A stretch of 44,132 nucleotides of DNA from contig VIKI01000115.1 of the NCBI GenBank assembly GCA_008080595.1, positions 1 through 44,132 of the forward strand, given 5' to 3'. Source of the DNA: Comamonadaceae bacterium (lineage in GTDB: Bacteria; Pseudomonadota; Gammaproteobacteria; Burkholderiales; Burkholderiaceae_C). Positions 3,030 through 34,711 of the stretch are shown one piece after another; the first letter of the stretch is position 1, and each line of letters opens with the position of its first letter. Made by a program: the position numbers and the translations under genes. The notes under the pieces were generated by a model. The model searched no databases and had not been told where the DNA came from. It saw only the letters and a list, made by a program, of their open reading frames with translations.

Positions 3030-4544
3030 TCAGTTCAGCGGCAATTGCAGTTCAAACACCATCTGTTCGCTGCTTTGTGATTGGAGCCTGAGTTCGCCAC
3101 CATGGGCGCGGGCAATTTCACGCGACAGGCTCAGTCCCAGCCCGACACCTTCCACCTGGCGGCTGTGGGCCGTGTCGGCTCTGAAAAAGCGCTCAAACAG
3201 TCGGGCTTCATCGGCCGGTGTCATGCCGGTTGAGGCATTGGCGATGCTGACCTCAACACAAGCACCATGGCGCTTGGCGGCGATATGAATCCAGCCCGGC
3301 TCCAGGTTGTATTTGATGGCGTTGCTGATCAGGTTGTAGAGCACCTGGTGCAGCAGGCTGCTGTCGGCTTGAATCGTCAGCCCGGGTTCAATCTCGCTGC
3401 TGATTTTCAGGTGCGGGGCCAGCATCTGGCTGTCTTCCAGCACTTCCTCCAGCGCGGCGCTTAAATCAAAATTTTCCTTGCGAACTTGGGCATCGGCTTG
3501 TGACAGCAGCAGCAACTTGCGCGAAATGCCCGACAAACGGCGCACTTCGTCCAGGATACTGGAGAGTTCGCGCTGCAACGGCGAATCTTCTTCGGCTTGG
3601 TGAATCACACGTTCCATCTGCCCTTGCAAAATCGCCAGCGGGGTTTTGAGTTCGTGCGCCGCATCGGCAGAAAAACGGGTAGCCTGCTTGAAGCTGCGCT
3701 CCAGCCGCTCCAGCATGCCGTTGTAGACCGCAATCAGCTCCACAAATTCCTGGTCTTTTCCGGCCGTGGTCAGGCGTTGATCCAGCCCCTTGGCGGTGAC
3801 CCGTTGTGTGGCTTCGGTGAGTTTTTGCAAAGGTCGCATGGCGCGACTCGACAACACCCAGGCCCCCAGGCTGATCAGCAACAAGGCAAACGGAATGGCA
3901 ACTACAAATGCATTACGCACACTGGTCATTTCGCCATCCATCACTTTGGCGTTGACGGCAATCAGCACATGGGCACGTTCGGTGCTGGCCAGCCCAATGC
4001 GCCACTGCTCGCCTGCAATGTCACGAAATATCACGGATGACCCTGGCCGTACCCCCAGTGGTGGGGGTTCCAGATTCGGTTCAGCGGGCAAATCTGCCGA
4101 GGTCGGTGGGGGTGGCCCCCATTGCCCCTCACGCGGCAAGCCACGTGGGCCATCCGGCGGTGGCAGGCGCAACAACTGAATCCACGGGCCGGCTTTGGGC
4201 ACATCATGCTGGCTTGGCCAGGGCAGACGTTCAATGGCAAAAGTGCTGGGCCAGTTGGGTGATTGGTAAATCACCTGTCCCGCACCGTCTTGTGCCAACA
4301 GCAGCAAGTCCTCTGGCTTGCGCAGACCAAAGTTGGTCAATACATCGGCCTCAAAACGCTGCCAGCCAAAAGCGGTGCGTGGCCGTCCTACCTCACGTTC
4401 GGCATGGACTCGCACCTCGGTGTCGAGCCGCTCCAGTTGAATGCTGCGAATCAGCCACCAGGAGCCCACACCAAAGCCCACCAGCGCCACCCCGCTGACC
4501 AGTACCGACAACAAAATCAGCCGGGTTTTGAAGCTGCTAATCAT
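3030..4544 (-). CDS. Two-component sensor histidine kinase (CusS-like architecture)
   Basis: A 504-residue membrane kinase. TM1 is about residues 8-32, followed by a periplasmic sensor of about 175 residues with a proline-rich stretch (about 125-167). TM2 is about 212-233 and is followed by HAMP. The phosphoacceptor is His297 in 'SADAAHELKTPLAIL'. The ATPase domain has the N-box 'LLHQVLYNLISNAIKYN' (about 397-413) and the G-box 'GVGLGLSLSREIARAHGG'. It overlaps the response-regulator gene by four bases (ATGA), so the two are translationally coupled. The layout resembles heavy-metal sensor kinases, but no Cys/His metal cluster is obvious in the sensor. The signal is therefore unknown. Confidence 0.92.
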   Translation of the reverse strand: MISSFKTRLILLSVLVSGVALVGFGVGSWWLIRSIQLERLDTEVRVHAEREVGRPRTAFGWQRFEADVLTNFGLRKPEDLLLLAQDGAGQVIYQSPNWPSTFAIERLPWPSQHDVPKAGPWIQLLRLPPPDGPRGLPREGQWGPPPPTSADLPAEPNLEPPPLGVRPGSSVIFRDIAGEQWRIGLASTERAHVLIAVNAKVMDGEMTSVRNAFVVAIPFALLLISLGAWVLSSRAMRPLQKLTEATQRVTAKGLDQRLTTAGKDQEFVELIAVYNGMLERLERSFKQATRFSADAAHELKTPLAILQGQMERVIHQAEEDSPLQRELSSILDEVRRLSGISRKLLLLSQADAQVRKENFDLSAALEEVLEDSQMLAPHLKISSEIEPGLTIQADSSLLHQVLYNLISNAIKYNLEPGWIHIAAKRHGACVEVSIANASTGMTPADEARLFERFFRADTAHSRQVEGVGLGLSLSREIARAHGGELRLQSQSSEQMVFELQLPLN

Positions 4545-5227
4545 GCCAGTTTGCGAAAACGGTAGCCCACCCCACGCACACTCTCAATCGGGGAAGCCCC
4601 GTCTGCGCCCACTCCAATCGAGGCCATCTTTTTGCGGATACGCTGAATACACACGTCGATGATGTTGGTGCTGGGGTCAAAGTCGTAGTCCCACACATGT
4701 TCCAAAATTTGTGTGCGGGTGAAGACCCGTCCGGGTGAGCGCATCAGGTACTCCACCAGGTTGAATTCGCGCCCGGTCAGGTCTACCGTCTCGCCGCACC
4801 AGGTTACCTCACGGCTGATGCGGTCCAGCTTCAGGTCGCCCACCGCCAAGATGTTTTGCCGCTCGCCTGAGACACGGCGCAGCAGCGCCTGAATGCGGGC
4901 AATCAGCTCTTCCACAAAAAACGGTTTCGACAGGTAGTCGTCCGCTCCCAGGCTCAGGCCCTCAATGCGGTCATCCAGCTCGTTGCGGGCGGTGAGCAAA
5001 ATCACCGGCGTGACGTTGCCCGCCTTGCGCAAACCTTTCAGGATCGACAGGCCATCACGCCCGGGCAGCATGATGTCGAGCACGATCACATCAAAGCTGC
5101 TGGTGCTGGCGCGGTCAAACCCGTCAATGCCGTTGTCGCAGTGCTCGCAGGCAAAACCCTGCTCTTTAAAGCCGGCGCAAACAAAGTCGGCAATCTTCTT
5201 CTCATCTTCAACCAGTAGTACTTTCAT
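4541..5227 (-). CDS. OmpR-family response regulator, CusR/CopR-like
   Basis: A 228-residue regulator. The receiver has acidic residues E7/D8, phospho-acceptor D51 in 'VIVLDIMLPGRDG', T79 and K101 ('YLSKPF'). A winged-helix DNA-binding domain follows, with 'LTGREFNLVEYLMRSPGRVFTRTQILEHVWDYDFDPSTNIIDVCIQRIRKK', close to the CusR/CopR subgroup (…TN.IDV.I.R.R.K). A longer frame starts at 5293, but the internal ATG at 5227 gives the standard N-terminus MKVLLVEDE and has AGGAAG upstream. The palindrome at 5272-5291 lies 44 bp before this start, suggesting autoregulation. It is the first gene of the pair with the kinase. Confidence 0.93.
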   Translation of the reverse strand: MKVLLVEDEKKIADFVCAGFKEQGFACEHCDNGIDGFDRASTSSFDVIVLDIMLPGRDGLSILKGLRKAGNVTPVILLTARNELDDRIEGLSLGADDYLSKPFFVEELIARIQALLRRVSGERQNILAVGDLKLDRISREVTWCGETVDLTGREFNLVEYLMRSPGRVFTRTQILEHVWDYDFDPSTNIIDVCIQRIRKKMASIGVGADGASPIESVRGVGYRFRKLA

Positions 5228-5271
5228 CGTGTGCTTCCTTGGGCAGAGCTTAAGTCTTTGCGCCGCGTGCT

Positions 5272-5291
5272 GCATGACAAAACTGTCATGC
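5272..5291. promoter_or_regulatory. CusR-box-like palindrome between response regulator and TPR/decarboxylase operon
   Basis: The second copy of GCATGACAAAACTGTCATGC, identical in all 20 positions and in the same orientation as the copy at 2253-2272. It can be extended by a T/A pair on each side. It sits between the divergent response-regulator gene (44 bp away) and the TPR gene (85 bp away). It is therefore well placed to control both. The assignment to the local response regulator is inference from resemblance to the CusR box. Confidence 0.75.
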
Positions 5292-5376
5292 AAACAGCGC
5301 CTGAATCGTTAGGTACGGCTTCCAGAATTCGCCCATTCCATTTTGATTTCATTCATTTCACAGGAGGTATTCAATC

Positions 5377-5988
5377 ATGAAACTGAACTCTTTGATGGCC
5401 GCACTGGCGGCGAGCATGGCTTTGATGTGTTCCCACGTGAGCGCACAAGAAGCCGCCTGGCAAAACTCTTACCAGCTGGAGGCGGCGGGCAAATATTCCG
5501 AGGCCATGGCCGCCATCGACGGTGTACCTGCCAACGGGCCAGATGCCGAGTTGAAGATTCTCCGCCGCGGCTGGCTGAATTACCTGCCGGGTCGGTTTGA
5601 TGAGTCGATTCGCGAATACCGCCTGGCGATTGAGCGCAACCCCAAATCCCTGGATGCGCGGTTGGGCATCACCTTGCCCTTGCTGGCCGCCAAACGCTGG
5701 CGCGAAGCCGAGCAAGCGGCACAAGCCGCCCTGAACCTGGCCCCCAACAACTACACCGCCATGCTGCGCCTGGTGATTGCCCTGGAAGCCCAGCAAGACT
5801 GGAACATCATGGCCAAAACTGCGGCCAGCATGGTCACCAGCTACCCCACCGATGCCAGCGCCTATGTCTACCTGGCACGTGCCAATGCCTGGCTGGGCAA
5901 GCGCGATGAAGCCGCCGCCGCTTACACCGCAGCGCAAGCACGCTCGCCAGGCCATCTGGAAGCCAAAGCTTACCTGGCCAAAAAATAA
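5377..5988 (+). CDS. Secreted tetratricopeptide-repeat protein
   Basis: A 203-residue protein with a Sec signal peptide (cleavage likely after 'MCSHVSA', about residue 23) and tandem TPR-type helix pairs. Examples are 'AWQNSYQLEAAGKYSEAMAAID', 'GRFDESIREYRLAIERNPKSLDARLG', 'KRWREAEQAAQAALNLAPNNYTAMLRL' and 'AYVYLARANAWLGKRDEAAAAYTAAQ'. The ribosome site AGGAGG is strong. TPR proteins are periplasmic scaffolds or partners for assembly. Only 25 bp separate it from the decarboxylase gene, so it is probably the first gene of that operon, downstream of the CusR-like box. No enzymatic motif is present. Confidence 0.85.
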   Translation: MKLNSLMAALAASMALMCSHVSAQEAAWQNSYQLEAAGKYSEAMAAIDGVPANGPDAELKILRRGWLNYLPGRFDESIREYRLAIERNPKSLDARLGITLPLLAAKRWREAEQAAQAALNLAPNNYTAMLRLVIALEAQQDWNIMAKTAASMVTSYPTDASAYVYLARANAWLGKRDEAAAAYTAAQARSPGHLEAKAYLAKK

Positions 5989-6013
5989 ACCCGCATTCAA
6001 CCCATCCCCGGTC

Positions 6014-8668
6014 ATGACCTCGTTCGATTTAAAACACCAGCGCAACACGCTCTGGCAAGCCTTGCAGCAAGCGCTGCATCTGCCCACGCCACCGGGTGAT
6101 GAGCTGGCCGCCAGCCTGCAAGCGCTGGCCACCATGGACCGCTTCTGGACTTATCCCGGCCTCGGGGTCATGCTGCGTTTGCAGGCCTATCTGGCGCAGG
6201 GCCAATTCACGCTGATGCGCCAACTGGTGGACAACTGCTGCCATCAGCTGCAAAGTGAGAGTTATCGGATGCAAACTTTCAGACCGTTTCAAACCAACCT
6301 GGAGCGGCTGGATCGCCCCATGCTGCATGAAAACCGGCAGCTGGAGGCCGTGCCGGTGGCGCCGCTCAAACCCTATTTTGAGGTGCTGATTGTTCACCCC
6401 TGTCCGGCCGACTATGAAATGCTCTACCGCCAGCAATTGGCCAGCTTCAAGTCCTTACACGATGAGTTTGTCTATGACATTGTGCTGGTGGACTGTGCCG
6501 AAGATGCCCTGACCGCCGTGCTGGCCAACACCGACATTCAGGCCTGCGTGTACCTGAACCATGTGCCGGTCAGCAGCGTAGCGGCCAGTGCGCTGTACCC
6601 GCAGTTCAGCCAGCCGTTGCTGGCCACCGCCGCACCAGTGCAGTGGCATGACGTGGTGGAGGCCAACCTGTGCCGCAGCATGCGTGCCATGCGCCCGGAG
6701 CTGAACCACTTTTTGATCAGCGAACTCTCACCGCTGGAGATGAGCGATGCCCAGCGCGCCCAGTTTGACCGCGTGCTGTTTCACCTCAACCCGTTTCAAG
6801 ACCTGCATGCGGCCATCTTGAGCGGTGTGCGCCAGCGCTTTTCAACCCCGTTTTTTGATGCCCTGCAAGCCTACAGCCGCCAGCCTAAAGGCGTGTTCCA
6901 TGCTTTGCCGCTGTCGCGCGGGGCCTCGGTGAAAGGCTCGCCGTGGATTCACGACATGCTGGACTTTTACGGCAACAACCTGTTTCTGGCCGAGACCTCG
7001 TCGACCCAGGGCGGGCTGGATTCGCTGTTGGACCCCACCGGGGCGATTTTGCAAGCGCAGCGCAAAGCAGCCGAAACTTTTGGTGCAGACAGCAGCTACT
7101 TTGTCACCAACGGCACTTCCACCTCCAACAAGATCGTGATGCAGGCCAACCTGCAACCTGGCGACCTGGTGCTGGTGTCCTCCGACTGCCACAAGTCCAT
7201 CCCTTACTCGGTGATGCTGACGGGCGCGTACCCGATTTTTCTGGAAACCTATCCGCTGGTGGATTACGACTTGTATGGTGGCATTGACCTGGCCCAGATC
7301 AAGGCGGTGATGCTGGACTTGAAGGCCCATGGCCGGCTCGACCAGCTCAAACAAATCACCCTCACCAACTCCACCTTTGACGGCCTGATCTACCACACCG
7401 AGCATTTCATGATGGAGCTGCTGGCCATCAAGCCCGATGTGATTTTTCATTGGGACGAGGCCTGGTTTGCCTTCTCCCACTTTCACCCGCTGTACCACAG
7501 CCGTACCGCCATGAGCGCGGTGAAAAAAATCCGCCAGCGGATAGTCGACCCGGCTTATTGGGAGTTTTACGCCCAGTGGAAAACGGCGTTTGATGCCAAT
7601 ACCGATGAAGCCAAATGGCAGCAGCCGCTGTTCCCTGACCCGGCGCGGGTGCAACTGCGGGTGTACGCCACCCAATCCACCCACAAAACCTTGTCGGCCT
7701 TTCGGCAAGCCTCGATGATCCATGTGGCCGATGTGGGCTTTGACCAGGGGCACTTTCTGGAAGCGTTTCGCATCCACACCTCCACTTCGCCCAACTACCA
7801 GATCATTGCCTCGCTGGACATTGCCCGCCGCCAGGCCGCGCTGGAAGGTTTTCACCGGGTGCGTGAATGCATTTTGTTGTCGATGCAACTGCGCCAGCGT
7901 ATTCAAGACAGTGCCGAGCTGGCGGCGTATTTCTCGGTGCTGGGTGATGCGCAGATGATCCCAGCCCATTTCCGCAGCGCAGATGCAGCCGCCACCCCCC
8001 ATGATCTGGCCGGTTTGAGCCAAAGCTGGGGCAGTTCAGACTTTGTGATTGACCCGACCCGCGTCACGCTCGATGTCAGCCGCACCGGCATGGACGGCAG
8101 CAGTTTCCGCCAACTGTTGATGACCCGCTACGACATTCAGGTCAACAAAACCTCACGCCACACCGTGCTGTTTTTGATCAACATTGGCGCTACCCAGGCC
8201 AGTGTGGACTACCTGGTGCAAGTGCTGAGCGAGATGGCGGCCAAATTTGCACAGGAGCATCAGCAGCAGGCGGCCTTGACGCTGGAGCCCTCCCTGGCCT
8301 TGCCGCAGCGGCGCTATTACCACCCGGCCTTCATGCCGTTTACCGACGGCGCTTACCACGCCTGTGATGTGCGCCGCGCCCACTACCAGGGCGAAGTGCG
8401 CCGCCATGTGGAATTTGTGCCCTTGTCAGCCGACACGCTGGCTCAGGTGCAGGCCGGGCGCATCTGGGTCTCGGCCACCTTCGTCACACCTTACCCACCG
8501 GGCTACCCGGTGCTGGTCCCGGGGCAAATCATCACCCCGGAAATCCTGAGTTTTTTCGCCCACATCAAGGTCAAGGAAATCCACGGCTTTCATTTCGAAC
8601 ACGGCTTCAAGGTGTTTGACGATGAGTTCCTGGCCCAACTTGGCAGAACACCTGTTGACGCATCATGA
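6014..8668 (+). CDS. Orn/Lys/Arg-type PLP decarboxylase (large form)
   Basis: An 884-residue fold-type I PLP enzyme of the inducible lysine/ornithine/arginine decarboxylase family; typical members have about 710-760 residues. A flavodoxin-like 'wing' resembles about residues 120-190. The core has 'VTNGTSTSNKI' (about 364-374), His393 in 'SSDCHKS' that stacks on the cofactor, Asp481 in 'FHWDEAWFAF', and the Schiff-base Lys558 in 'ATQSTHKTLSAFRQAS'. The C-terminal domain ends with 'PYPPGYPVLVPGQIITPE'. The reaction would be decarboxylation of a basic amino acid to a polyamine-type amine; which amino acid is not clear. The ATG at 6014 follows the TPR stop closely. The gene overlaps the next by ATGA, which argues for a shared pathway. 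Confidence 0.93.
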   Translation: MTSFDLKHQRNTLWQALQQALHLPTPPGDELAASLQALATMDRFWTYPGLGVMLRLQAYLAQGQFTLMRQLVDNCCHQLQSESYRMQTFRPFQTNLERLDRPMLHENRQLEAVPVAPLKPYFEVLIVHPCPADYEMLYRQQLASFKSLHDEFVYDIVLVDCAEDALTAVLANTDIQACVYLNHVPVSSVAASALYPQFSQPLLATAAPVQWHDVVEANLCRSMRAMRPELNHFLISELSPLEMSDAQRAQFDRVLFHLNPFQDLHAAILSGVRQRFSTPFFDALQAYSRQPKGVFHALPLSRGASVKGSPWIHDMLDFYGNNLFLAETSSTQGGLDSLLDPTGAILQAQRKAAETFGADSSYFVTNGTSTSNKIVMQANLQPGDLVLVSSDCHKSIPYSVMLTGAYPIFLETYPLVDYDLYGGIDLAQIKAVMLDLKAHGRLDQLKQITLTNSTFDGLIYHTEHFMMELLAIKPDVIFHWDEAWFAFSHFHPLYHSRTAMSAVKKIRQRIVDPAYWEFYAQWKTAFDANTDEAKWQQPLFPDPARVQLRVYATQSTHKTLSAFRQASMIHVADVGFDQGHFLEAFRIHTSTSPNYQIIASLDIARRQAALEGFHRVRECILLSMQLRQRIQDSAELAAYFSVLGDAQMIPAHFRSADAAATPHDLAGLSQSWGSSDFVIDPTRVTLDVSRTGMDGSSFRQLLMTRYDIQVNKTSRHTVLFLINIGATQASVDYLVQVLSEMAAKFAQEHQQQAALTLEPSLALPQRRYYHPAFMPFTDGAYHACDVRRAHYQGEVRRHVEFVPLSADTLAQVQAGRIWVSATFVTPYPPGYPVLVPGQIITPEILSFFAHIKVKEIHGFHFEHGFKVFDDEFLAQLGRTPVDAS

Positions 8669-10161
8669 ACCCAAGCATCACCCTGCACACCCTGGCCGAC
8701 ATCAAGGCCCACTTTGCCAGCAACACCCGGCCCCTGTTCTTTGTCAGCGCCAGCAACTTCAACATGCTGGGCATGCACGAGTGGGTGAAGGATTGGCACA
8801 ACATCAACCTGCTGGACTGTTTTGACGGCCAGCACCCCTGCGCCCTGGTCATTCCAGACGACCATGCCCAGGTGTTCGAGAGCATTGAAGATGTGAACCG
8901 TTACCTGCTGGCCAGCCCGGTCACACGTGAAGCGATTGCCCAGGTGCAAGCCAGCACAGCCGAGCCCTGCCAGGCGCTGTTCTTGTTTTTTGATGAGCAG
9001 ATTGAAGCCATGTGCCAAGCGCTCAAGCTCAACATCGTGCTGCCCAAAAACGCCTTGGTGCGCGAGATTGACAGCAAGATCGTCACCACCGAAATCGGCA
9101 ACGCCGCCGGGGTCGCCAGTGTGCCCAATGTGCTGGCGCATGTGGGCTCGTATGCCGAGTTAGAGCAGCTGGCAGAACAGGCGGATCTGGGCCAGCGCTG
9201 GGTGGTGCAAACCGCTTATGGCGATTCTGGCAAGACTACATTTTTTATAGCTTCTCCTGCAGATTACACAAGCGTTGCAAGCCAAATTGAGTCGCAAGAG
9301 CAGGTCAAGGTGATGCGCTGGGTGAACTGTGTGGGCACGGCCATCGAGGCTTGTGCCACGCGCTGGGGCACTTTTGTCGGGCCGCTGCTCTCGGAGATGA
9401 TCGGGCTGGAATCCCTGACCCCATACCAGGGTGGCTGGTGTGGCAATGAGAACTACGCGGCAGCATTTTCAGACCGCATTCGCGCCCAGGTGCAGCAAAA
9501 AACCCAGGCCATGGGTGATGCGCTTTACCAGCGCGGTTACCGGGGCTATTTCGAGCTGGACTTTTTGATTGACCAGGACAGCGGCGAGGTCTACCTGGGT
9601 GAGCTCAATGCCCGCATCAGCGGGGTCAGCGCCTTGACCAACCTGAGCAACTTTTGCGCCCAGCATGTGCCGCTGTTTTTGTTTCACCTGCTGGAGTATG
9701 ACGAGCGCGTCAACCTGACCCTGAATGTGGCCGAATTCAACCAGGCCATGCTGATGCTGGGGGCCAGCGGCATGAGCGCCCAGGTGATTCTGAAACACAC
9801 CGACTGCACGCTGAAAATTCTCACCCAGGCTCCGGTGTCAGGTGTGTACCGGCTGGAAGACGATGGCAGCTTGACGCTCAAAGCGGCCAGCGTCAACCGG
9901 CGTGATGCCCTGGCCGAGGACGAAGCCTATGTGCTGCGTATCCTGACCGAAGGCGAATACGCCTACAAGGGCGCAGACCTGGCCATCATGCTTGTCAACC
10001 AGGTGATCCGCACACCCAAGGGCCAACTCAACACCCAGGGTGAGCGCTGGGTGGCTGCGCTGCAAAGCCAATTTGCCATGCGCCAGCTCAACCAGGAAGA
10101 GCGCGCCCTGGTCGAGCTGGCCCACAACCCGGCCAATGTTAAAAGCGGGAGGGCGGAATGA
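8665..10161 (+). CDS. ATP-grasp ligase (carboxylate-amine type)
   Basis: A 498-residue cytoplasmic ATP-grasp protein. The ATP-binding segment 'RWVVQTAYGDSGKTTFFI' (about 193-210) and the metal-binding 'YFELDFLIDQDSGEVYLGELNARISG' (about 294-320, with the conserved E-x-N) are both visible. Members activate a carboxylate as acyl phosphate and join it to an amine or thiol. It overlaps the decarboxylase gene by ATGA upstream and the C45 gene by ATGA downstream. I infer that it may conjugate the amine made by the decarboxylase; the substrate is unknown. It could be annotated as biotin-carboxylase-like, but no BCCP partner is present. An AT-rich patch lies at about 9236-9290. Confidence 0.85.
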   Translation: MNPSITLHTLADIKAHFASNTRPLFFVSASNFNMLGMHEWVKDWHNINLLDCFDGQHPCALVIPDDHAQVFESIEDVNRYLLASPVTREAIAQVQASTAEPCQALFLFFDEQIEAMCQALKLNIVLPKNALVREIDSKIVTTEIGNAAGVASVPNVLAHVGSYAELEQLAEQADLGQRWVVQTAYGDSGKTTFFIASPADYTSVASQIESQEQVKVMRWVNCVGTAIEACATRWGTFVGPLLSEMIGLESLTPYQGGWCGNENYAAAFSDRIRAQVQQKTQAMGDALYQRGYRGYFELDFLIDQDSGEVYLGELNARISGVSALTNLSNFCAQHVPLFLFHLLEYDERVNLTLNVAEFNQAMLMLGASGMSAQVILKHTDCTLKILTQAPVSGVYRLEDDGSLTLKAASVNRRDALAEDEAYVLRILTEGEYAYKGADLAIMLVNQVIRTPKGQLNTQGERWVAALQSQFAMRQLNQEERALVELAHNPANVKSGRAE

Positions 10162-11141
10162 CGATCAGCCCACGCAAATGCTTTACCGCCGTCAACGAGT
10201 CCCACCCCGGCGACCAGTGGCTGGCCCATGCCCAGGCCGCGCTGCCCAGCTACCGGCGCTGGTTTGCCAGTGAAGGTGAACTCAAACGCCCCAGCTTGAA
10301 CGCCTGCCGTGAGGCCCTGCACACCCACATGCCGGAACTGGTGCCGATGTGGCAGCGGTTGATAGATCTGACCCAGGCCGATGAACAAGATGCCCGCTTG
10401 CTCAGCTTCTACTGCCCGGCTGTCGCCACTGCCGGCTGCTCACAAGCGGTGTGGACCCGCTACACCCCCACCCTGGTGCGCAACTACGACTATGCACCCG
10501 AGTTGTGTGAGGGCCGTATCCTGAAAACCCGCTGGTTTGACACCACGGTGATCGCCTCCACCGACTGCCTGTGGGGTGTGCTCGACGGCATGAATGAGCA
10601 CGGCCTGAGCGTGTCACTGGCCTATGCCGGCAAAGACAGCGTGACAGAGGGCTTTGGCATCTCTCTGATCCTGCGCTATGTGCTGGAGTTTTGTGGCACG
10701 GTGGACGAGGCGGTCAAAGTGCTGTGCCGGGTACCGGCCCACATGGCTTACAACGTGACCCTGCTGGATGCTTATGGCCAGGTGCGCACCGTGGAGCTGG
10801 CCCCGTTTGCCAGCCCCAAGATCAGTTGCAAACCCCTGGCGGTGAATCACCAGGGCGATTTTGAGCTGACCAACTACGCCATGTTTTCGCACTCGTATGA
10901 GCGACAGCAAACCCTGCTGGCCAAGCTCTATGACCCCTTGAGTACGGTTGAGTCGTTTGTCAACAGCTTTGAGGTCAGCCCGCTGCGTGCCAGCAACTAC
11001 GCGCAAGGCTTTGGCACGCTCTACACCGCCATTTACAACCCGCAGTTGCGTGCCATGGAATACCGCTGGCCCAACAAGCTGCGCATGTACCAATCTTTTG
11101 CCTACTTTGAGCCTTGTACGCTGTGGGTGGATTTGGTGTGA
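10158..11141 (+). CDS. C45-family Ntn hydrolase / acyltransferase
   Basis: A 327-residue protein of the acyl-CoA:6-aminopenicillanate acyltransferase (C45) group. These are N-terminal-nucleophile enzymes that cut themselves before a cysteine and then hydrolyse or transfer amide-linked acyl groups. The predicted nucleophile is Cys94 in 'TAGCSQAVW', followed by the diagnostic 'LVRNYDY' (about 106-112) and 'WGVLDGMNEHGLSVSLAYAGK'. The preceding segment of about 93 residues would be the released or retained propeptide. It is coupled to the ATP-grasp gene by an ATGA overlap. Together they suggest making and then trimming or exchanging an amide bond. No signal peptide is visible, so it acts in the cytoplasm. 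Confidence 0.88.
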   Translation: MTISPRKCFTAVNESHPGDQWLAHAQAALPSYRRWFASEGELKRPSLNACREALHTHMPELVPMWQRLIDLTQADEQDARLLSFYCPAVATAGCSQAVWTRYTPTLVRNYDYAPELCEGRILKTRWFDTTVIASTDCLWGVLDGMNEHGLSVSLAYAGKDSVTEGFGISLILRYVLEFCGTVDEAVKVLCRVPAHMAYNVTLLDAYGQVRTVELAPFASPKISCKPLAVNHQGDFELTNYAMFSHSYERQQTLLAKLYDPLSTVESFVNSFEVSPLRASNYAQGFGTLYTAIYNPQLRAMEYRWPNKLRMYQSFAYFEPCTLWVDLV

Positions 11142-11151
11142 TTGGATTCCT

Positions 11152-13156
11152 ATGTTGATGATTGTTCGTCGTTATTTGCAGCGGCTGCTGGAAGAAGTGG
11201 CCCTGGGCTACGCCTGGATCTCGCTGCTGCCGTCCTGGCCCTCGGGTGTGTTGCTGGCACTGCTTACATTGGCTGACCCTGCCGCCGGGGCCATGGGCTT
11301 GCTGGCGGCGCTGAGTGCCTGGCTGGCCGGGCAAGTCGCCGGGGCCGATGCCGGTGAACGCCCGGTGTGTGTGTTCAATGGCTTGCTCAGCGGCTTGTTT
11401 GTGGCCCATGTGTGGGTGTTTGGCGCACCGGTGCTGGCCTTGACGCTGCTCGGCGGTGTGCTTTCGGGCTGGTTGACGGTGGTGCTGGGCCGCCTGGCCT
11501 GGTCACTGGTGACCCTGCCGATTTTGAGCCTGCCGTTTGCCTTGGGGGCCATGTTCACCCTGGCGGCGGGCGGCAGCTTGTCCAGCTTGCACATGCGTGC
11601 CTATGTGGCCCCGCCCGAGCTGCTTGGCAACGGGCTGGATGCCTTTTTGAGTGCCTTTGGGGCGCTGTATTTCATGCCCAACCCCTGGGTTGGTGCGGTG
11701 GTGCTAGGGGTAATCGCACTGGCCTCGCGCTACTACCTGCTGTTGGCCGTGCTGGGTTATGCCGCCGCCCGTGCCTGGCTGCAACTGCTGGGCGCGGCCC
11801 CCGAGCATCTGGCCAGCACCGCCTGGGACAGCAATGCCATTTTGGCGGCCCTGCTGGTGGGCGGCTTGTTTGCCACACCCTCACTCATGACCGCCGCGCT
11901 GGCGGTGCTGGCCGCGGTGTTGGCGGCCTGGCTGGCTTTGGCGCTGGGGCGCATTCTGGATGTGGTGCATCTGGTGGCTTTCTCCGCCCCGTTTGTGCTG
12001 GCGGCCTGGCTGGTGCTGTACGCTGCTGTGCGCAACACCCGCATGGCCAGCAGCTTCAACCTGTTGCAACCGGATTTTCCTGAGGCCTCGTTTGTGCGTG
12101 CCCAGGTCAGCCGCGCACGGGTGGGCGAGCCCGGCAGCGTGCCGCTGGGCCTGCCCTGTATGGGCGCGTGGACGGTGTCGCAAGGCTTTTCTGGCGCTCA
12201 CACCCACCGTGGGCCGTGGCGGCATGCGCTGGACTTCATCGTCCAATGTGGCCGCCAACTGGGGCAACTGTGTGGTGATCAAGCTCTATGAGGGGCGGTT
12301 TGCCATGGTGGCGCACCTCAAGCCGGGCTCGGTGGTGGTGGCCCCCGGGGCCTGGGTGCAGCCGGGTGATGTGCTGGGCACCTGCGGCAACTCGGGCCGC
12401 TCACCTCAACCCCACATCCACCTGCATGTGCAAACCAGTGACGAGCCCGGTTCACCCACGGCGGCGTTTCTCCTCAGCAGCGTGATGCTGACCGAGCCTG
12501 GGCAGGAGGCCCGTTACGAACTGGCCGTGGTGCCACCTGAATCCTCCACCGTGGTCACTGCCCTGGACGGCCATGCACGCCCGTTTTATTTGCTGGCCGG
12601 GCGCGGCTTGTGCTACACCGTGGCCCGCAACGAGCAGTTGCAAAACTGGTCACTACATTGCGAGGTGGACTTGCAAGGCCGTATGACGCTGGTGTCGAGC
12701 CTGGGTGCACGCTGCGTGGCCGAATCCACCTGGGCGGTGTTTTCCTGTTATGAGCGTAATGCGGTGGCCGACCCGTTTTTTGACCTCTGGCTGCTGGCCT
12801 GCGGCTACATGCCCGCATCGATTCACGTCACCCGCTGGCAAGACCGCTGCACCCCCGCCCGGCTGTTACCTATGGCCACAGCCCAATGGACGGCCCGCCT
12901 GCTCTGGCCCTGGGCCACCTTTGCCAGCAGTGCCCACCAGCGCCGCTGGGACGAGCAGTGGCAGTGCTGGCAGCAAGACGCGCTACACACCCAGTCGTTC
13001 ACCGGGCTGGCGCTGAGCACCCAGGCGCGTATTGCGCCGCAAGTGGGCTGCACCGCTCTGAGTGCCCAAGCCGGGCCAGACCGCTACATCTTGCAGGCCA
13101 CCCACATGTTCCAAAAGGCCGATATGGGCGTGCCGGGGTGGGAGGTGGGGTTGTGA
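11152..13156 (+). pseudogene. Urea transporter fused to M23 peptidase-like domain, frame-broken
   Basis: The first open part (11152-12291, 379 residues) contains a complete UT-type urea/amide channel of about 10 helices. It shows 'VFNGLLSGLFVAHVW', 'LPILSLPFALGAM' and the second-repeat counterpart 'WDSNAILAALLVGGLFATPS'. It then enters an M23 metallopeptidase domain ('SQGFSGAHTHRGPWRHALDFIV') and runs into a stop. The rest of the domain continues in another frame from about 12255 to 13156, with 'ANWGNCVVIKLYEG', 'AHLKPGSVVVAPGAWVQPGDVLGTCGNSGRSPQPHIHLHV' and a long C-terminal tail. Around 60 residues expected between 'DFIV' and 'NWGN' are missing, so this is a deletion and not one slipped base. 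The transporter half may still be made. It is the last gene of the decarboxylase operon, 10 bp after the C45 stop. Confidence 0.8.
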
Positions 13157-26851: not shown

Positions 26852-27036
26852 GGAAAAACTCCTTCGAATGAATGAGCCCCGATGGTGTACGCAATATGTA
26901 TCCTTGGTGTGAAGCTCCTGCATTTTGTGCAACCAACGGTAACTGGCTGAACAGGGTGGATGGCTCATCTGCCCGGGATAATCAGCGGCCACACTGTCTC
27001 GCCCCGGTATTTCTTCCATTGATCTCGACCCACACA

Positions 27037-28341
27037 ATGCACACCCTCGAACAATTGCGCAGCGGCGCACTCATTGGCACGCGCCGCCTGAACCTGTCTT
27101 GCGGGCTGCGCAGCCTGCCGCCCGAGGTGTTTGACCTGGCCGACACGCTGGAGGTGCTTAACCTCTCGGGCAACCAGTTGCACAGCCTGCCGCATGATTT
27201 GCCACGCCTGCACCAGCTCAAGGTGATTTTTTGCTCAGACAATCCGTTTACCCATTTGCCCGAGGTGCTGGGCGATTGCGCTGCGCTGCAAGTGGTGGGC
27301 TTCAAGGCGTGTCAGATTCACACTGTGCCAGGGGCGGCCTTGCCACCTGCGCTGCGCTGGCTGATCCTGACTGACAACGCGGTGAGCCTGTTGCCGCCCG
27401 AGCTGGGCCAGCGTCCAGCCTTGCACAAACTCATGCTGGCGGGCAACCAGTTGCGTGAGTTGCCTGCGAGTTTGGCCAACGCGCAGCGGCTGGAATTGAT
27501 CCGTCTGGCGGCCAACCAATTGACACAACTGCCTGGCTGGCTGACCGAGTTGCCACGCTTGAGTTGGCTGGCATTGGCGGGCAACCCGTTGGGCTGGTCA
27601 CAGCCGACCACCCCAACCCTGCGCCAAGTGTCTTGGCCTGAGCTGCAGTTGGGACAGCCATTGGGTGAAGGGGCCTCTGGCCAGATTTACCAGGTGTTAC
27701 AAGATAGTGACCAGCCCGCGCTGGCGCTCAAATTGTTCAAAGGCGCGGTCACCAGCGATGGTTTGCCCGAGCACGAGTTGGCGGCCTGCCTGGCTGCTGG
27801 ACAGCATCCGGCCCTGTGTACACCTCACGCCGAGCTGGCCGACCACCCGCAAGACCGGCGCGGCCTGCTGTTGCCGCTGATTGACCCGGCCTACATCAAC
27901 CTGGCCGGGCCGCCCAGTCTGGAGACGTGTACGCGCGATGTCTACCCCGCAGACCTGCGCCTGGCTTGGCCCACGGTGCGGCAACTGGCACAGACCATGG
28001 CCGGAGCGGTGGCGCATTTGCACCAGCAAGGGGTGATGCATGGCGACTTGTACGCCCACAACATCCTGTGGCACCCGGCCACAGGTGAGGCGCTGCTGGG
28101 CGACTTTGGCGCAGCCACCTGCTTGCCCAGCGAGGGTGGGCAAGCGCATCAGGGCTTGTTGGCACTGGAGGTGCGGGCCTTTGGCTGCTTGCTGCAAGAG
28201 TTGTTGGAGCGCTGCCCGGCGCAAGACAGCTCAAGCTGCGCCATGGATGCCTTGACACGGCTGGCCGAATCTTGCCTTCAATCCCAGCCCAAGGCCCGCC
28301 CCAGCATGGCTGAGGTGGTGGCGCAACTGCAGACTGTTTGA
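27037..28341 (+). CDS. Leucine-rich-repeat protein with eukaryotic-type protein kinase domain
   Basis: A 434-residue cytoplasmic protein. Residues about 15-190 hold seven or so LRR units ('LEVLNLSGNQLHSLPHDLPRL', 'LHKLMLAGNQLRELPASLANA', 'LELIRLAANQLTQLPGWLTEL'). Residues about 205-434 are a Hanks-type kinase: glycine loop 'LGEGASGQIYQV' (209-220), Lys232, catalytic loop 'HGDLYAHN' (335-342) and DFG at 356-358. The loop has HGD where most kinases have HRD. No transmembrane helix is present. The substrate and the ligand bound by the LRR domain are unknown. It converges on the YeeE pair across a REP-like element. The ATG at 27037 starts just before the first LRR. Confidence 0.9.
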   Translation: MHTLEQLRSGALIGTRRLNLSCGLRSLPPEVFDLADTLEVLNLSGNQLHSLPHDLPRLHQLKVIFCSDNPFTHLPEVLGDCAALQVVGFKACQIHTVPGAALPPALRWLILTDNAVSLLPPELGQRPALHKLMLAGNQLRELPASLANAQRLELIRLAANQLTQLPGWLTELPRLSWLALAGNPLGWSQPTTPTLRQVSWPELQLGQPLGEGASGQIYQVLQDSDQPALALKLFKGAVTSDGLPEHELAACLAAGQHPALCTPHAELADHPQDRRGLLLPLIDPAYINLAGPPSLETCTRDVYPADLRLAWPTVRQLAQTMAGAVAHLHQQGVMHGDLYAHNILWHPATGEALLGDFGAATCLPSEGGQAHQGLLALEVRAFGCLLQELLERCPAQDSSSCAMDALTRLAESCLQSQPKARPSMAEVVAQLQTV

Positions 28342-30335: not shown

Positions 30336-31495
30336 TTACTCAGAGCGCAACGCATCCACCGGATTGAGCTGGGCGGCACGGCGGGCTGGCAACACCCCGG
30401 CCAGCAAACCGATGGCCACCGCAATCCCCTCGGCCAGCAGCACAAAGACCAGCGGTGTGTGCACTGGCAGGGCGGGCACGGCCAGATGAATCAAATCGCC
30501 GACAAGGTGACCGCTTCACCCAGGAACAGGCCCAGAATGGTGTTGCGCGGTGCGCCCAAGGCCACCAGCAGGCCGATTTCACCGGTGCGTTCACTCACCG
30601 CGATGGTCATGATGGTCACAATGCCGACACCCCCCACCAGCAGTGAAATGCTGCCCAGTGCGCCGACCGCCATGGTCAAGATGTCCAGAATGTTCGACAG
30701 CGTGCGCAGCATGTCTTCTTGCGTGGTGATGGTGAAGTCTTCACGCCCGTGGCGCAGGGTGAGGGTGCTTTTCACTGCCGCCACGATGCGCGCCGCCGGA
30801 ATGCCTTCTTCATACGCCAGGTCGATCTTCATCATGCCGTCGCGGTTGTACAAGTCCAGCGCACGGGCGGTGGGAATGTAGGCGGCATCGTCCAGGTCAA
30901 CCCCCAGAAACTGGCCTTTGGCCTCCAGCACACCAATCACCCGAAACTGTAGACTGCCGATGCGCACCCGTGCCCCCAAGGGGTTGCTGCTGCCAAACAA
31001 CTCGCTCTTGAGTTTGGAACCCAGCACCACGAAGGCGCGGGCGTTTTCCAGCGCCTCGTCGGGCAGGAACTGGCCGATCTTGACCTTGATGCTGTAGACC
31101 TTGAGCATGTCGGCCCCGACACCGTTGACTGTGGTGCGGCGCAGGCGGCCATTGGCGGCAACTTCGGTATTGCCCCAGACCATGGCGGTCATACCCGTCA
31201 CATGAGGCAAATGGACCAGCGAACGGGCATCGTCCAGGCTCAGGGGCCGCACCGAGCTGGGAATACCGGTGGGGGCCGGGCCGGAGGTTTTGACCTTGCC
31301 CGGAGAAATGCTGGCAATGTTGGTCCCAAACTGGGTGAATTCGGCCAGCACAAAGCGGTGAATACCCTCGCCAATCGAGGTCAGCAAAATGACGGACGCA
31401 ATGCCCACGGCAATGCCCAGCAGCGTCAGGAAACTGCGCAGGCGCTGCGCCGTGACGGCACGCAGGGCGAGGTGGATGGCATCAGGCAGGCGCAT
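30336..31495 (-). pseudogene. MacB-type ABC transporter permease, frame-broken near C-terminus
   Basis: The open part (30491-31495, 334 residues) has the N-terminal helix 'RSFLTLLGIAVGIASVILLTSIGEG', the MacB periplasmic core domain and the FtsX-type helices 'LGSISLLVGGVGIVTIMTIAVSERTGEIGLLVALGAP'. It ends abruptly at 'GEAVTLSAI'. The expected last helix and tail 'LPVHTPLVFVLLAEGIAVAIGLLAGVLPARRAAQLNPVDALRSE' follow in another frame, ending at TAA 30336. About 12-15 residues are lost between them. The gene is last in the export operon, so the exporter would lack one intact permease unless the other permease compensates. Confidence 0.82.
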
Positions 31496-31522
31496 GCTGG
31501 TTCGCTTGGCGGTTTGTTTGGG

Positions 31523-32731
31523 TCAACGCTTGGACAGCGCCTGCACCGGGTCGAGTTGCGCCGCCCGACGGGCCGGCAGCACGCCAAACAAAATCCCGGT
31601 CAGCAGGGCGGTGGAGAGTCCGGCCAGCACTGCCCAGTCGGGGGGATAAGCCGGAAACGTGGGGTAGAGCCAGCGAATCAGCGCCGCCGCCAGTTGCCCC
31701 AGCAGGTAGCCCATCACCGCACCAGCCAGCGACAGCATGCTGGCTTCGGTCAAAAAAATCAGCCGGATGCCGCCACCCGTGGCCCCCAGCGCCTTGAGCA
31801 GGCCAATCTCGGCGGTGCGCTGGCTGACTGACACCAGCATCACATTCATCACCAGAATACCGGCCACCGCCAGGCTGATGGCGGCAATACCGGCCACGCC
31901 CAGGGTTAATGCCCCCAGCAGGCGGTCAAAGGTGGCCAGCACGGCATCTTGGGTGATCACGGTTACGTCTTGCTCACCTTCGTGGCGCAATTTGATGATC
32001 TCGGTCACTTGGGTTTTGGCAGCTTCAATCGACTCCCTGCCATGGGCTTCCACCAAAATGCGAAACAAGGTGTTGCTGTTGAACATGGCTTGCGCCAGTG
32101 ACACCGGCACAAACACCAGTTCGTCGGTGTTCAGGCTCAGACCCTGGCCGCTGGGGGCCAGCACCCCCACAATGCGAAACCGTCGGTCACCCAGTCGCAC
32201 CAATTGGCCCAGAGCCGGGGCGCTGCCAAACAGTTCGTCGCGCACCTTGGCCCCAATCACCGCTTCACTGGCCCCCCGATGCCAGTCCCCTGCGGCCAGA
32301 AAGCGCCCTTGCGCCATGGCCATCTGGCGCACCTCGATGTACTCGGCAACTGTTCCTGCCACCATCACCTCGCGTAATTTGCCCCCGACACTGATCTCAG
32401 AGGTGCCCACCGTCAGCGGGGCCAGGCGGCGCACGGCGCTGGCGCGTTGCAGGGCTAGCGCATCGTCAATGCTCAGGTCACGCGGGGTGCTGGTGATGGC
32501 ATTGCCGGGGTTGAAGCCGCCGGTTTGGGAGCGTCCGGGCAACACAATCACCAGGTTGCTGCCCAGGCTGGAGAACTCGCTCATCACATAGCGCCGCGCA
32601 CCGTCACCCAGCGCGGTGAGCACCACCACGGCGGCCACACCAATCGACATGGCCAGCACCAGCAAGGCGGCACGCAGCGGGTTGCCGGTGGCCGCCTCAC
32701 GGGCAAAACGAATCAGGTCGGTGCTGCGCAT
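31523..32731 (-). CDS. MacB-type ABC transporter permease (intact)
   Basis: A 402-residue FtsX/MacB permease: N-terminal helix 'LRAALLVLAMSIGVAAVVVLTALGDG', the MacB periplasmic core ('PGRSQTGGFNPGNAITSTPRDLSIDDALALQ'), then three C-terminal helices and the conserved 'VSQRTAEIGLLKALGATGGGIRLIFLTEA...GVLPARRAAQLDPVQALSKR'. With the ATPase and the adaptor it forms a tripartite exporter of drugs, peptides or lipoproteins. It overlaps the ATPase gene by 19 bp at the start, and is followed by the second, broken permease after a 27-bp gap. Confidence 0.9.
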   Translation of the reverse strand: MRSTDLIRFAREAATGNPLRAALLVLAMSIGVAAVVVLTALGDGARRYVMSEFSSLGSNLVIVLPGRSQTGGFNPGNAITSTPRDLSIDDALALQRASAVRRLAPLTVGTSEISVGGKLREVMVAGTVAEYIEVRQMAMAQGRFLAAGDWHRGASEAVIGAKVRDELFGSAPALGQLVRLGDRRFRIVGVLAPSGQGLSLNTDELVFVPVSLAQAMFNSNTLFRILVEAHGRESIEAAKTQVTEIIKLRHEGEQDVTVITQDAVLATFDRLLGALTLGVAGIAAISLAVAGILVMNVMLVSVSQRTAEIGLLKALGATGGGIRLIFLTEASMLSLAGAVMGYLLGQLAAALIRWLYPTFPAYPPDWAVLAGLSTALLTGILFGVLPARRAAQLDPVQALSKR

Positions 32732-33441
32732 GGGGTGGTTGCCGCTGCGAGCGGGGTGCGGCGCTGGTCGTTCTGGAGTGCGCCGTCTTCCATCCTCAAT
32801 TGGCGCTGGGCGCGGGCCCCCAGGGCGCTGTCGTGGGTCACCATGATCAGGGTGACGCCCTGGGCGTTGAGGCCTTCCAGCAGGTGAATCACCTCTTCGC
32901 CGGTGGCGCGATCCAGGTTGCCAGTGGGTTCGTCGGCCAGAATCATCGCCGGTTGCATGATGGTGGCGCGGGCAATCGCCACCCGCTGGCGCTGCCCGCC
33001 CGAGAGTTCATCGGGTCGGTGCTGGGCCCGTTGCTCCAGGCCGTAGTCTTTCAGGGCTTGTTGGACGCGCACCTCACGTTGAGCTGGAGCCAGACCGGCC
33101 AACACCATCGGCAGGGCAATGTTCTCGGCGGCGCTCAGGCGCGGCACCAGGTGAAAACTCTGGAACACAAAGCCGATGCGTTGGCTGCGCACCTGGGCTT
33201 GTTCGTCGGGCGAGAGCGTGGTCACATCACGCCCCTCCAGTCGGTAGATGCCGGTGTTGGGCCGATCCAGCAAACCCAGCAGATTGAGCAGGGTGGATTT
33301 GCCCGAGCCTGACGGCCCCATCACCGCCACATATTCGCCCGCCGTGATCGACAGGTTCAGGTTGCGCAGCGCATGCACCTCGGAGTCGCCCAGGTGAAAC
33401 ACCCGCTCGATCCCGGCCAGCTCGATTTGCGCGGTGCTCAT
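32713..33441 (-). CDS. ABC transporter ATP-binding protein (MacB/LolD type)
   Basis: A 242-residue ATPase with Walker A '[15 protein letters not shown]', the Q-loop '[25 protein letters not shown]', signature '[14 protein letters not shown]', Walker B '[12 protein letters not shown]' and switch '[21 protein letters not shown]'. The pattern is that of stand-alone MacB/LolD ATPases, which power export by pulling on the permease. The start overlaps the adaptor stop by ATGA; the C-terminus overlaps the permease start. The two permease genes downstream complete the complex. Confidence 0.93.
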
Positions 33442-34595
33442 TTTTTGGAGGTGTCGTCAGCCACAAACGGGATGCCGGCTTTGACCCCTTCCCGATCCAG
33501 CGATGTCACCACCCGGTCACCCACCACCAGGCCTTCCAGCACCTCGGTGAATTCCCAGTTGGCCAAGCCGGTTTTGAGCTGGCGCTGCTGCAGCGTGCCA
33601 TCCGACCCGGCCAGCAACACGCGGCCACCTTCCTGCAAGGCCGAGGTGGGCACACGCACCACTTTGTCACGCACCGCCAGCACCACCTCCACATCGGCGC
33701 TGTAACCGACCAGCAGGTGGGGTTGGGTTTGCTCAGGATCGAGGGTGGCTTCAATGTCGACCGTGCGGGCCTGTTTTTCAACAGCTGAGACATAGGGGGC
33801 CACGCGCTTGACCTTGCCGGGGAAAGATTGCTTGGGCAGTGCGTCAAAGCTGATGCGCACGGTCTGCCCGGCGCTCATCTTGGGGGCATCGACCTCGTCC
33901 ATCGGGGCGCGCACGTAGAGGCAGCTGTCGTCAATCAGGTCAATCGCCGGTGGGGTCGGCACACCGGGCGGTGACGGTGTGGCGTATTCACCGACCTCGC
34001 CCACAATTTTGGCCACCGTGCCGGCAAAAGGGGCGTAGAGCACGGTGCGGTTTTGTTCTACGCGAGTGGCTTTCAGTCGGGCCAGGGTTTGCACCACATC
34101 GGCCTTGGCTGCGTCGCAACCCGCACGCCGGGCCTGGGCCTCGGTGCGGGCCTGTTCGTCACGCGAGCCCGAGACAAAGCCTTGCTTGAACAGGGATTCT
34201 TGCCTTGCCGCCTCGCGCTCGGCGTTGGCGGCCACGGTGCAGGCCTCGGTGACGCGCTGGCGGGCGGTGTCCACCTGGGTCAGGGCCAGCGCACTTTGGG
34301 CTTGCTGGTCGTCGTTCCAGAGCTTCATCAGCAACTGGCCTTTTTTGACCTTGTCACCCTCCTTGACCGCCAGCACTTCGATGCGCCCGCCGATGGTGGC
34401 CGACAGCTTGGTGCGCTGGCAGGCCTCGACCGTACCGGCCCGGGTGTTGGCAATGCTGGACTCGACCCGGCCCTGGTCAATGGTGCTCAGCATGACGGCC
34501 ATTGGCTTGGGCCGCTTGAGCCACCAGATGCCAGCGCCCAGGAGGCAGACAACGAGCAAAACCAGCAGGAGGCGACGAATCAGCGTGGTGGACAT
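33438..34595 (-). CDS. HlyD/MacA-type efflux periplasmic adaptor
   Basis: A protein of about 385 residues with one N-terminal membrane anchor ('RRLLLVLLVVCLLGAGIWWL') and a membrane-fusion fold. The lipoyl half-motifs ('GGRIEVLAVKEGDKVKKGQLLMKL' and 'LYAPFAGTVAKIVGEVGEYA') flank a coiled-coil hairpin (about 95-180) and are followed by beta-barrel segments. It bridges the inner-membrane transporter to an outer-membrane channel, which is not encoded in this operon. The ATG at 34595 is preferred; a TTG at 34613 would add six residues. It heads the operon with ATPase and two permeases. Confidence 0.9.
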   Translation of the reverse strand: MSTTLIRRLLLVLLVVCLLGAGIWWLKRPKPMAVMLSTIDQGRVESSIANTRAGTVEACQRTKLSATIGGRIEVLAVKEGDKVKKGQLLMKLWNDDQQAQSALALTQVDTARQRVTEACTVAANAEREAARQESLFKQGFVSGSRDEQARTEAQARRAGCDAAKADVVQTLARLKATRVEQNRTVLYAPFAGTVAKIVGEVGEYATPSPPGVPTPPAIDLIDDSCLYVRAPMDEVDAPKMSAGQTVRISFDALPKQSFPGKVKRVAPYVSAVEKQARTVDIEATLDPEQTQPHLLVGYSADVEVVLAVRDKVVRVPTSALQEGGRVLLAGSDGTLQQRQLKTGLANWEFTEVLEGLVVGDRVVTSLDREGVKAGIPFVADDTSKK

Positions 34596-34711
34596 GCGGG
34601 AATCTTTCGGCAAAGCGGTTGTTTCATTCTAGGCTTGGCTGTGAACGCAGTAATATCTTCCCCAAATAATCAGGATTCATTGTGGGCAGTATCAAAGGAA
34701 GAGGCGACAAC

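Follow-up and report, generated by a model that had tools for sequence, protein, structure and literature searches.

A decarboxylase, ATP-grasp ligase and C45 enzyme unit beside a urea transporter-M23 fusion: a putative system for amide-conjugated diamines

What could a bacterium do with an operon that joins an amino acid decarboxylase, a ligase of amide bonds, an enzyme that transfers or cuts acyl groups and a urea transporter? The question is raised by a stretch of 44,132 nucleotides from a Comamonadaceae bacterium (contig VIKI01000115.1 of assembly GCA_008080595.1), referred to here as the window. Positions 5377 to 13156 carry five genes, encoding a tetratricopeptide repeat (TPR) protein, a pyridoxal 5'-phosphate (PLP) dependent decarboxylase-like protein of the ornithine/lysine/arginine (OKR) type, an ATP-grasp ligase, an N-terminal nucleophile (Ntn) enzyme of the C45 family, and a urea transporter (UT) domain fused to an M23 domain. 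The decarboxylase, the ligase and the C45 enzyme form a unit. That the same channel also recurs beside a different, unrelated group of enzymes suggests a genuine system not described before. The features of the operon are the following:

5377-5988, + strand: TPR protein, 203 amino acids (Pfam TPR)
6014-8668, + strand: OKR-fold (fold I) PLP decarboxylase-like protein, 884 amino acids (PF01276)
8665-10161, + strand: ATP-grasp ligase, PRK06524-like, 498 amino acids (NCBIfam, below cut-off; structure model)
10158-11141, + strand: C45-family Ntn acyltransferase/hydrolase, 327 amino acids (NF040521, Pfam AAT)
11152-12291, + strand: UT part of the UT-M23 gene and the first stub of M23, with an early end of the frame (PF03253)
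12239-13156, + strand: remaining M23 part and C-terminal region, in a different frame (PF01551)
12240-12246, + strand: junction of a 140-base loss relative to loci L001 and L003 (DNA alignment, protein pieces)

All five genes lie on the + strand, separated by 25 bases, ATGA, ATGA and 10 bases, so that the layout given in a preliminary description of this DNA is confirmed from the coordinates. The longer decarboxylase reading frame that starts at TTG 5777 is regarded as over-extended, and 6014 was taken as the start.

A search with the C45 protein in 398 genomes of the phylum gave 18 places in 15 genomes, of which 15 were read (the window and 14 others, leaving out G356 and two places in G448). 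Ligase and decarboxylase are encoded at the same locus in 11 of these 15. The ligase, searched for in 398 genomes, is present in 11, always at such a trio, and these are the same 11 genomes; in the trio of G256 the C45 gene lies on the opposite strand. The 11 sampled trios divide into three of the window type and eight of another (L058-L065, about 39-47% identity). The NF005096 model, run over 143 genomes of the class, recovered G256 and the window genome at 1e-30 and none of 14 control genomes, and comparison of the ligase with phages gave no match at 1e-10.

Relatives of the decarboxylase are encoded in 8 of 26 candidate contig stretches. Loci L001-L005 hold the TPR protein, decarboxylase, ligase, C45 enzyme and an intact UT-M23 protein (717-741 amino acids), while the contig of L007 begins, and that of L008 finishes, within the decarboxylase. 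Together with the window, G034 (L033), G293 (L056) and G321 (L057), L001-L005 give nine loci of this enzyme set (set 1) with UT-M23, and neighbouring genes here, in the second set and on plasmids were counted by tblastn. The order TPR-decarboxylase-ligase-C45 is constant in 9/9, the TPR protein never being absent and its relatives being 53-79% identical to that of the window. The conserved co-occurrence and order that had been set beforehand as a test of the cluster were thus found. The gene set is scattered among bacteria. The contig of L004 is labelled as an Akkermansia muciniphila metagenome-assembled genome and has a set-1 operon with four proteins 59-74% identical to those of the window; it is probably mis-binned.

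The last gene of the window is split over two reading frames. That of UT ends at 12291, and the remainder of M23 is read in the other, 12239-13156, the shift falling between the two parts; in a DNA alignment 140 bases are absent between about 12242 and 12243 with respect to L001 and L003. As the genome is an assembly of 322 contigs, 89% complete, this loss could be either a mutation or an assembly fault. The UT part is 73% identical to the intact 718-residue protein of L001, and the M23 part 68% identical to its residues 414-717. Both exceed their Pfam cut-offs (PF03253, 123.7 bits against 25; PF01551, 38.4 against 28.7) and eight set-1 relatives keep the fusion intact. For the copy in the window, the fusion reported up to 13156 is not upheld as one frame.

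When the intact UT-M23 protein of L001 was used as a query, 40 of 299 genomes gave matches: three with set 1 (window genome, G293 and G321), 29 read as L107-L135, and, left out, four partial matches (G415, G435, G458, G500) and four to M23 only (G318, G383, G417, G462). The 29 loci hold a second enzyme set (set 2), with a fold-III PLP decarboxylase beside UT-M23 in 29/29 and an ATP-grasp protein of another family in 28, the contig of the 29th beginning within the decarboxylase. They also encode a PqqD-like protein (27/29; with a TetR-like N-terminus in both proteins tested), a TPR protein (26/29, with a UT-TPR fusion in the other three), a barrel protein (24/29) and, in three loci, an asparagine-synthase-like protein. 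In a structure model of the barrel of L003 (pLDDT 86) 14 strands are predicted, with CymA and OmpG as the nearest structures. The decarboxylases and ATP-grasp proteins of the two sets share no sequence similarity, and at E <= 1e-3 neither set's enzymes were detected in the loci of the other (29 of set 2, nine of set 1). In a tree of 18 UT-M23 proteins, with a midpoint root only and long branches flagged, the eight set-1 proteins cluster together (100/100) and have two set-2 proteins as their neighbours (100/98), which fits one replacement of the enzyme set, in either direction. As a separate observation, L110 (5072-6643), L111 (4897-6819) and L114 (1963-3399) encode a TPR region between UT-like halves, near an asparagine-synthase-like gene and UT-M23.

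Could these genes be neighbours by chance? For this speak the broken last gene of the window, the missing UT-M23 of L006 and L007, and the variable place of the UT-M23 gene, which precedes the TPR gene in five of the nine set-1 loci and follows the C45 gene in four. However, the ligase lies at the trio in 11/11 of the genomes that have it, and UT-M23 lies beside a PLP decarboxylase in 38/38 loci read (9 of set 1 and 29 of set 2). A chance neighbourhood is ruled out for the trio and for UT-M23 with a decarboxylase, and as an account of the whole it is hardly credible.

The window decarboxylase matches PF01276 (OKR_DC_1) with 268.2 bits against a cut-off of 27, and Rv2531c (PDB 9n0o/9n0n) with 637 bits over residues 37-876. 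In an alignment of 22 relatives (rows L059, L061 and L034 were dropped for stops), the PLP lysine and cofactor residues, CadA Lys367, His366, Ser364, Asp330, Trp333 and His245, are identical in 22/22 and in four Escherichia coli references. The assignment to the Orn/Lys/Arg type thus stood as to fold and cofactor site, but not as to an ordinary lysine or ornithine decarboxylase, a candidate rejected for set 1 on comparing active sites: the position of CadA Glu526, which is Glu in CadA, SpeF and SpeC, is Asn in 22/22. At the position of CadA Met394, the 10 window-type proteins all have Arg, the three lone decarboxylases all have Phe, and 8/9 proteins of the other trio type have Met.

For set 2, the nearest solved chain to the decarboxylase of L107 is N-citrylornithine decarboxylase (7kh2, E 5.6e-56), followed by diaminopimelate (DAP) decarboxylase (7.7e-40). 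A Cys-Met-Asn motif is present in 29/29. In FigC, according to the available part of the source, Met355 takes the place of an Asp next to the catalytic Cys; in the decarboxylases for ornithine/lysine, arginine and DAP, it is this Asp that touches the side-chain amine (PMC7857480). The cut-off of 500 of the FigC/FslC model NF041039 is not reached by L107 (211.6) or L117 (207.2).

The ATP-grasp protein gives no Pfam hit at E 0.001, and its best NCBIfam match, PRK06524 'biotin carboxylase' (NF005096), stays at 529.1 bits below a cut-off of 684. A structure model predicts the ATP-grasp fold, in agreement with the earlier assignment, and biotin carboxylase, PurK, PylC, GAR synthetase and BesA all score within 1.5 Z of one another, singling out no substrate. 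The C45 assignment was likewise upheld, with 145 bits against a cut-off of 85 for NF040521 and 116.5 bits, over the cut-off, for Pfam AAT. Gly93-Cys94, Arg108, Asn109 and Asp111 are invariant in 22/22 relatives, and the nucleophile is probably Cys94, after Gly93. The enzyme is probably cytoplasmic, since its N-terminus does not look signal-like by eye. The N-terminus of the TPR protein was judged signal-like by eye; a crude hydrophobicity script flagged no segment in the window protein.

We favour, tentatively and at somewhat less than even confidence, a biosynthetic operon for an amide-conjugated diamine that is linked with an envelope module. An amine, most likely that of a diamino acid, would be joined to a carboxylic acid or an amino acid by the ATP-grasp enzyme. 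The PLP decarboxylase would then take off the alpha-carboxylate, most likely that of the conjugate, much as FigC acts on N-citrylornithine; free basic amino acids would be the less likely substrates. Ligation would thus probably precede decarboxylation, and the C45 enzyme would next transfer or cleave the acyl group. UT-M23, the TPR protein and, in many relatives, the porin-like barrel of 14 predicted strands would handle the compound across the inner membrane, periplasm and outer membrane, presumably in export rather than import, with a possible part for M23. It is possible, but doubtful, that UT-M23, the TPR protein and the barrel are a new trans-envelope apparatus for small amide-conjugated diamines, served by two unrelated pairs of a ligase and a conjugate-specific PLP decarboxylase.

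Several observations weigh against the biosynthetic reading. The C45 gene stands without the trio at 4 of the 15 places read, L006 and L007 have the trio with no UT-M23 on their contigs, and no UT-M23 was seen within the 17-19 kb read for L058-L065, which make up 8/11 of the sampled trios. For this last reason passage through the UT is not part of every version. Three of ten plasmid loci (Shinella zoogloeoides, Roseateles XES5 and Cupriavidus necator) have ligase and C45 without the decarboxylase, and the trio form without UT-M23 sits with a nitrilase-type hydrolase and, in some cases, catabolic genes. The barrel is found in only 4/9 set-1 loci with UT-M23, and was not found in the window's own genome, which is 89% complete, by a search without a positive control; the UT-M23 gene of the window is itself broken, and no C45 enzyme accompanies set 2 in its 29 loci. 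The solutes known to pass UT channels are very small, so the conjugate may be too large. As for the order of the reactions, E. coli AdiA has Thr at the Glu526 position, and the Asn is also present in Rv2531c and in three lone decarboxylases (L030-L032, 38-39% identical) with no ligase or C45 near by, so that it does not track the ligase. The role of CadA Glu526 as a Lys-binding residue is putative and based on docking, as far as the available part of the source goes (PMC5607190). Ligation before decarboxylation is thus a fair inference for set 2 and a weak one for set 1, the Glu526 contact being docking-based only and the Asn being shared with relatives that lack the ligase. The amide conjugate crossing the membrane that the preliminary description had proposed is strengthened by an unrelated second set beside the same UT-M23, TPR and barrel proteins, its chemistry being putative.

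The company of the trio outside the UT-M23 loci bears on a second explanation, in which the pathway is catabolic: the decarboxylase would supply an amine, which the ATP-grasp enzyme would mask by acylation; once its free end had been oxidised by other enzymes, the C45 enzyme would take the mask off. The gamma-glutamyl-putrescine (Puu) pathway and the Ebony/Tan pair are models for such protection and release. A nitrilase-superfamily hydrolase adjoins the trio in 8/8 genome loci without UT-M23. The trio of L060 lies in a locus for the degradation of ectoine (DoeA with 670 bits, cut-off 613; DoeB with 491, cut-off 402.7; EutB with 466, cut-off 413), L059 has relatives of the L060 DoeA and regulator genes, and genes for an aldehyde dehydrogenase and an aminotransferase are near the trio in L060, L059 and L065. 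The order of the ectoine-degradation locus of Halomonas elongata is described in the available part of PMC3187862.

Plasmids add to this picture. Of 32 plasmid records matched by the ligase, ten were read and 22 were not. Six of the ten loci hold the full trio, on plasmids of Roseobacter ponti, Rhizobium leguminosarum WSM1689 and Vaf10 (where the decarboxylase is annotated as two pieces), Sinorhizobium meliloti SM11, Cupriavidus oxalaticus and Pseudorhodobacter turbinis. The ligase is accompanied by C45 in 9/10, as it is in 11/11 genome loci, and the R. leguminosarum OyaliB plasmid has the ligase, a decarboxylase in two pieces and transposases at the expected place of C45. The nitrilase-type hydrolase is encoded in 6/10. 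Near the ligase and C45 of Shinella and XES5, annotated neighbours are agmatinase, 5-guanidino-2-oxopentanoate decarboxylase, aldehyde dehydrogenase, D-amino acid dehydrogenase and racemase, suggesting breakdown of D-arginine or 4-guanidinobutyrate, and gabT lies near the ligase locus of Roseobacter ponti. On the other hand, the recurrent company at the nine window-type loci is the TPR protein, UT-M23 and at times the barrel; set 2 lacks the C45 enzyme that would unmask the amine; and the ectoine locus may be a mere insertion site. Masking and release, favoured by the neighbours of the form without UT-M23, is the main rival and seems a somewhat less likely account than biosynthesis; a single chemistry may also have been put to both uses.

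Some details of these plasmids stand apart from that argument. In OyaliB, two transposase genes occupy 11431-14391 of L076, the expected C45 position. In L085, from the Vaf10 plasmid, decarboxylase, ligase and C45 adjoin nifHDKEN, and genes for an ABC transporter and an amidase come next. The protein of L072 (15801-17588) annotated as 'alanine racemase' has an ornithine-racemase-like domain (397 bits, cut-off 480) and an arginase-like C-terminus (50 bits, cut-off 227.6). The record of L072, Roseateles sp. XES5, is marked UNVERIFIED_ORG; its annotated gene order is nearly identical to that of L086, Shinella zoogloeoides, over 25 kb, and its species label may be wrong.

Does the M23 domain tell what the envelope proteins act on? 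M23 is fused to UT in 18/18 intact relatives aligned, in which Asp363, His437, the HxH pair His470 and His472, and His354 are invariant, and a TPR protein or a UT-TPR fusion goes with UT-M23 in 38/38 loci. This would suit an amine-modified cell wall, with the conjugate put on or taken off the peptidoglycan by M23 and the TPR protein, and the UT either anchoring the protein in the membrane or letting through ammonia, urea or a small amide. However, HxxxD is the zinc motif of M23 and, while its Asp363 is kept, the expected first zinc His is variable, making M23 activity uncertain (the invariant His354 could be standing in for it), and among the neighbours, only part of which were named, none was recognised as a gene for wall synthesis. 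A role in the cell wall is therefore considered improbable, well behind biosynthesis of a conjugate.

The UT domain itself suggests urea: the decarboxylase would yield agmatine, urea would be released and the UT would move it. The Pfam score of the UT part, already given, and the agmatinase near ligase and C45 on two plasmids agree with this. Yet urease alpha is encoded in just 4/33 genomes with UT-M23 (4/22 of those with >=90% completeness and <=5% contamination), no agmatinase is among the five window genes, and the set-2 decarboxylase is nearest FigC and then DAP decarboxylases. A urea and agmatine system is thus a distant prospect, more so than the cell wall. Urea uptake for urease as a general role was rejected on the same urease counts. 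Likeness to the bacterial urea transporters goes as far as the UT domain and, for the L001 protein, weak similarity to UTs of solved structure; the UT here differs in its fusion to M23, in staying below the cut-off of the yut equivalog of NCBIfam (57.1 against 274.6) and in the absence, for the most part, of urease.

Among known systems, the proposed biosynthesis of a conjugate would work most like FigA/FigC (FslA/FslC) of rhizoferrin formation in its order of events, without any claim to membership in that pathway. There, ligation comes first and decarboxylation second, in the available part of PMC7857480, which does not mention a UT-M23, TPR or barrel protein. Among solved chains, N-citrylornithine decarboxylase is the nearest to the set-2 decarboxylase, and both have the Cys-Met pair. 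The differences are a NIS synthetase in place of the ATP-grasp ligase, His357 (modelled to meet citrate) in FigC where the set-2 motif has Ile, and another fold for the set-1 decarboxylase.

The latter resembles instead the long OKR decarboxylases of the Rv2531c type, with the same 637-bit match, the same long N-terminal region and the same Asn at the Glu526 position. Unlike set 1, their three lone relatives L030-L032 lack a ligase or C45 gene near by. The structure of Rv2531c has been solved and its activity is not known, according to the available part of PMC12910592. Likeness to PylC, the 3-methylornithine-lysine ligase, says little, its fold score being tied with those of biotin carboxylase and PurK and its sequence identity being 8-9%. 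In Drosophila, as far as the sources available in part describe it, Ebony and Tan conjugate an amine to an amino acid (carcinine) and later release it. Tan is a C45-type enzyme, and Ebony is not known to be an ATP-grasp enzyme. The pair differs from the window system in having no decarboxylase operon and no UT.

A literature search, with most subscription journals outside its coverage, found no described pathway with this gene set, in line with the preliminary description, and searches on ectoine genes with a decarboxylase and an ATP-grasp protein, and on the solved decarboxylase, found no description of it either. The novelty would lie in the putative system, as the single enzymes belong to known families. 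If the proposal is true, the long decarboxylases, of which the one with a solved structure has no known activity, would gain a genomic setting and a class of substrate open to testing; a class of bacterial amine conjugates so far unknown would be identified, and UT channels would have a function other than moving urea. An envelope module that recurs with two dissimilar enzyme sets is also the type of evidence able to tell which chemistry a module needs.

Upstream of the operon, the window encodes two further proteins of interest:

4541-5293, - strand: response regulator, divergent from the operon and possibly controlling it (Pfam)
3030-4544, - strand: histidine kinase, partner of the response regulator (Pfam)

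The divergent response regulator is common to the window, L001, L003 and L008, and the histidine kinase is also present in L001 and L003, being cut by the contig end in L008; control of the operon by this regulator is possible. Further along the window, a single protein (26872-28341, + strand) combines leucine-rich repeats with a protein-kinase domain. The region 30491-34613 (- strand) holds a MacB-like ABC export set with two permeases, the second of which (30491-31495) may be truncated, its match spanning only part of the FtsX domain.

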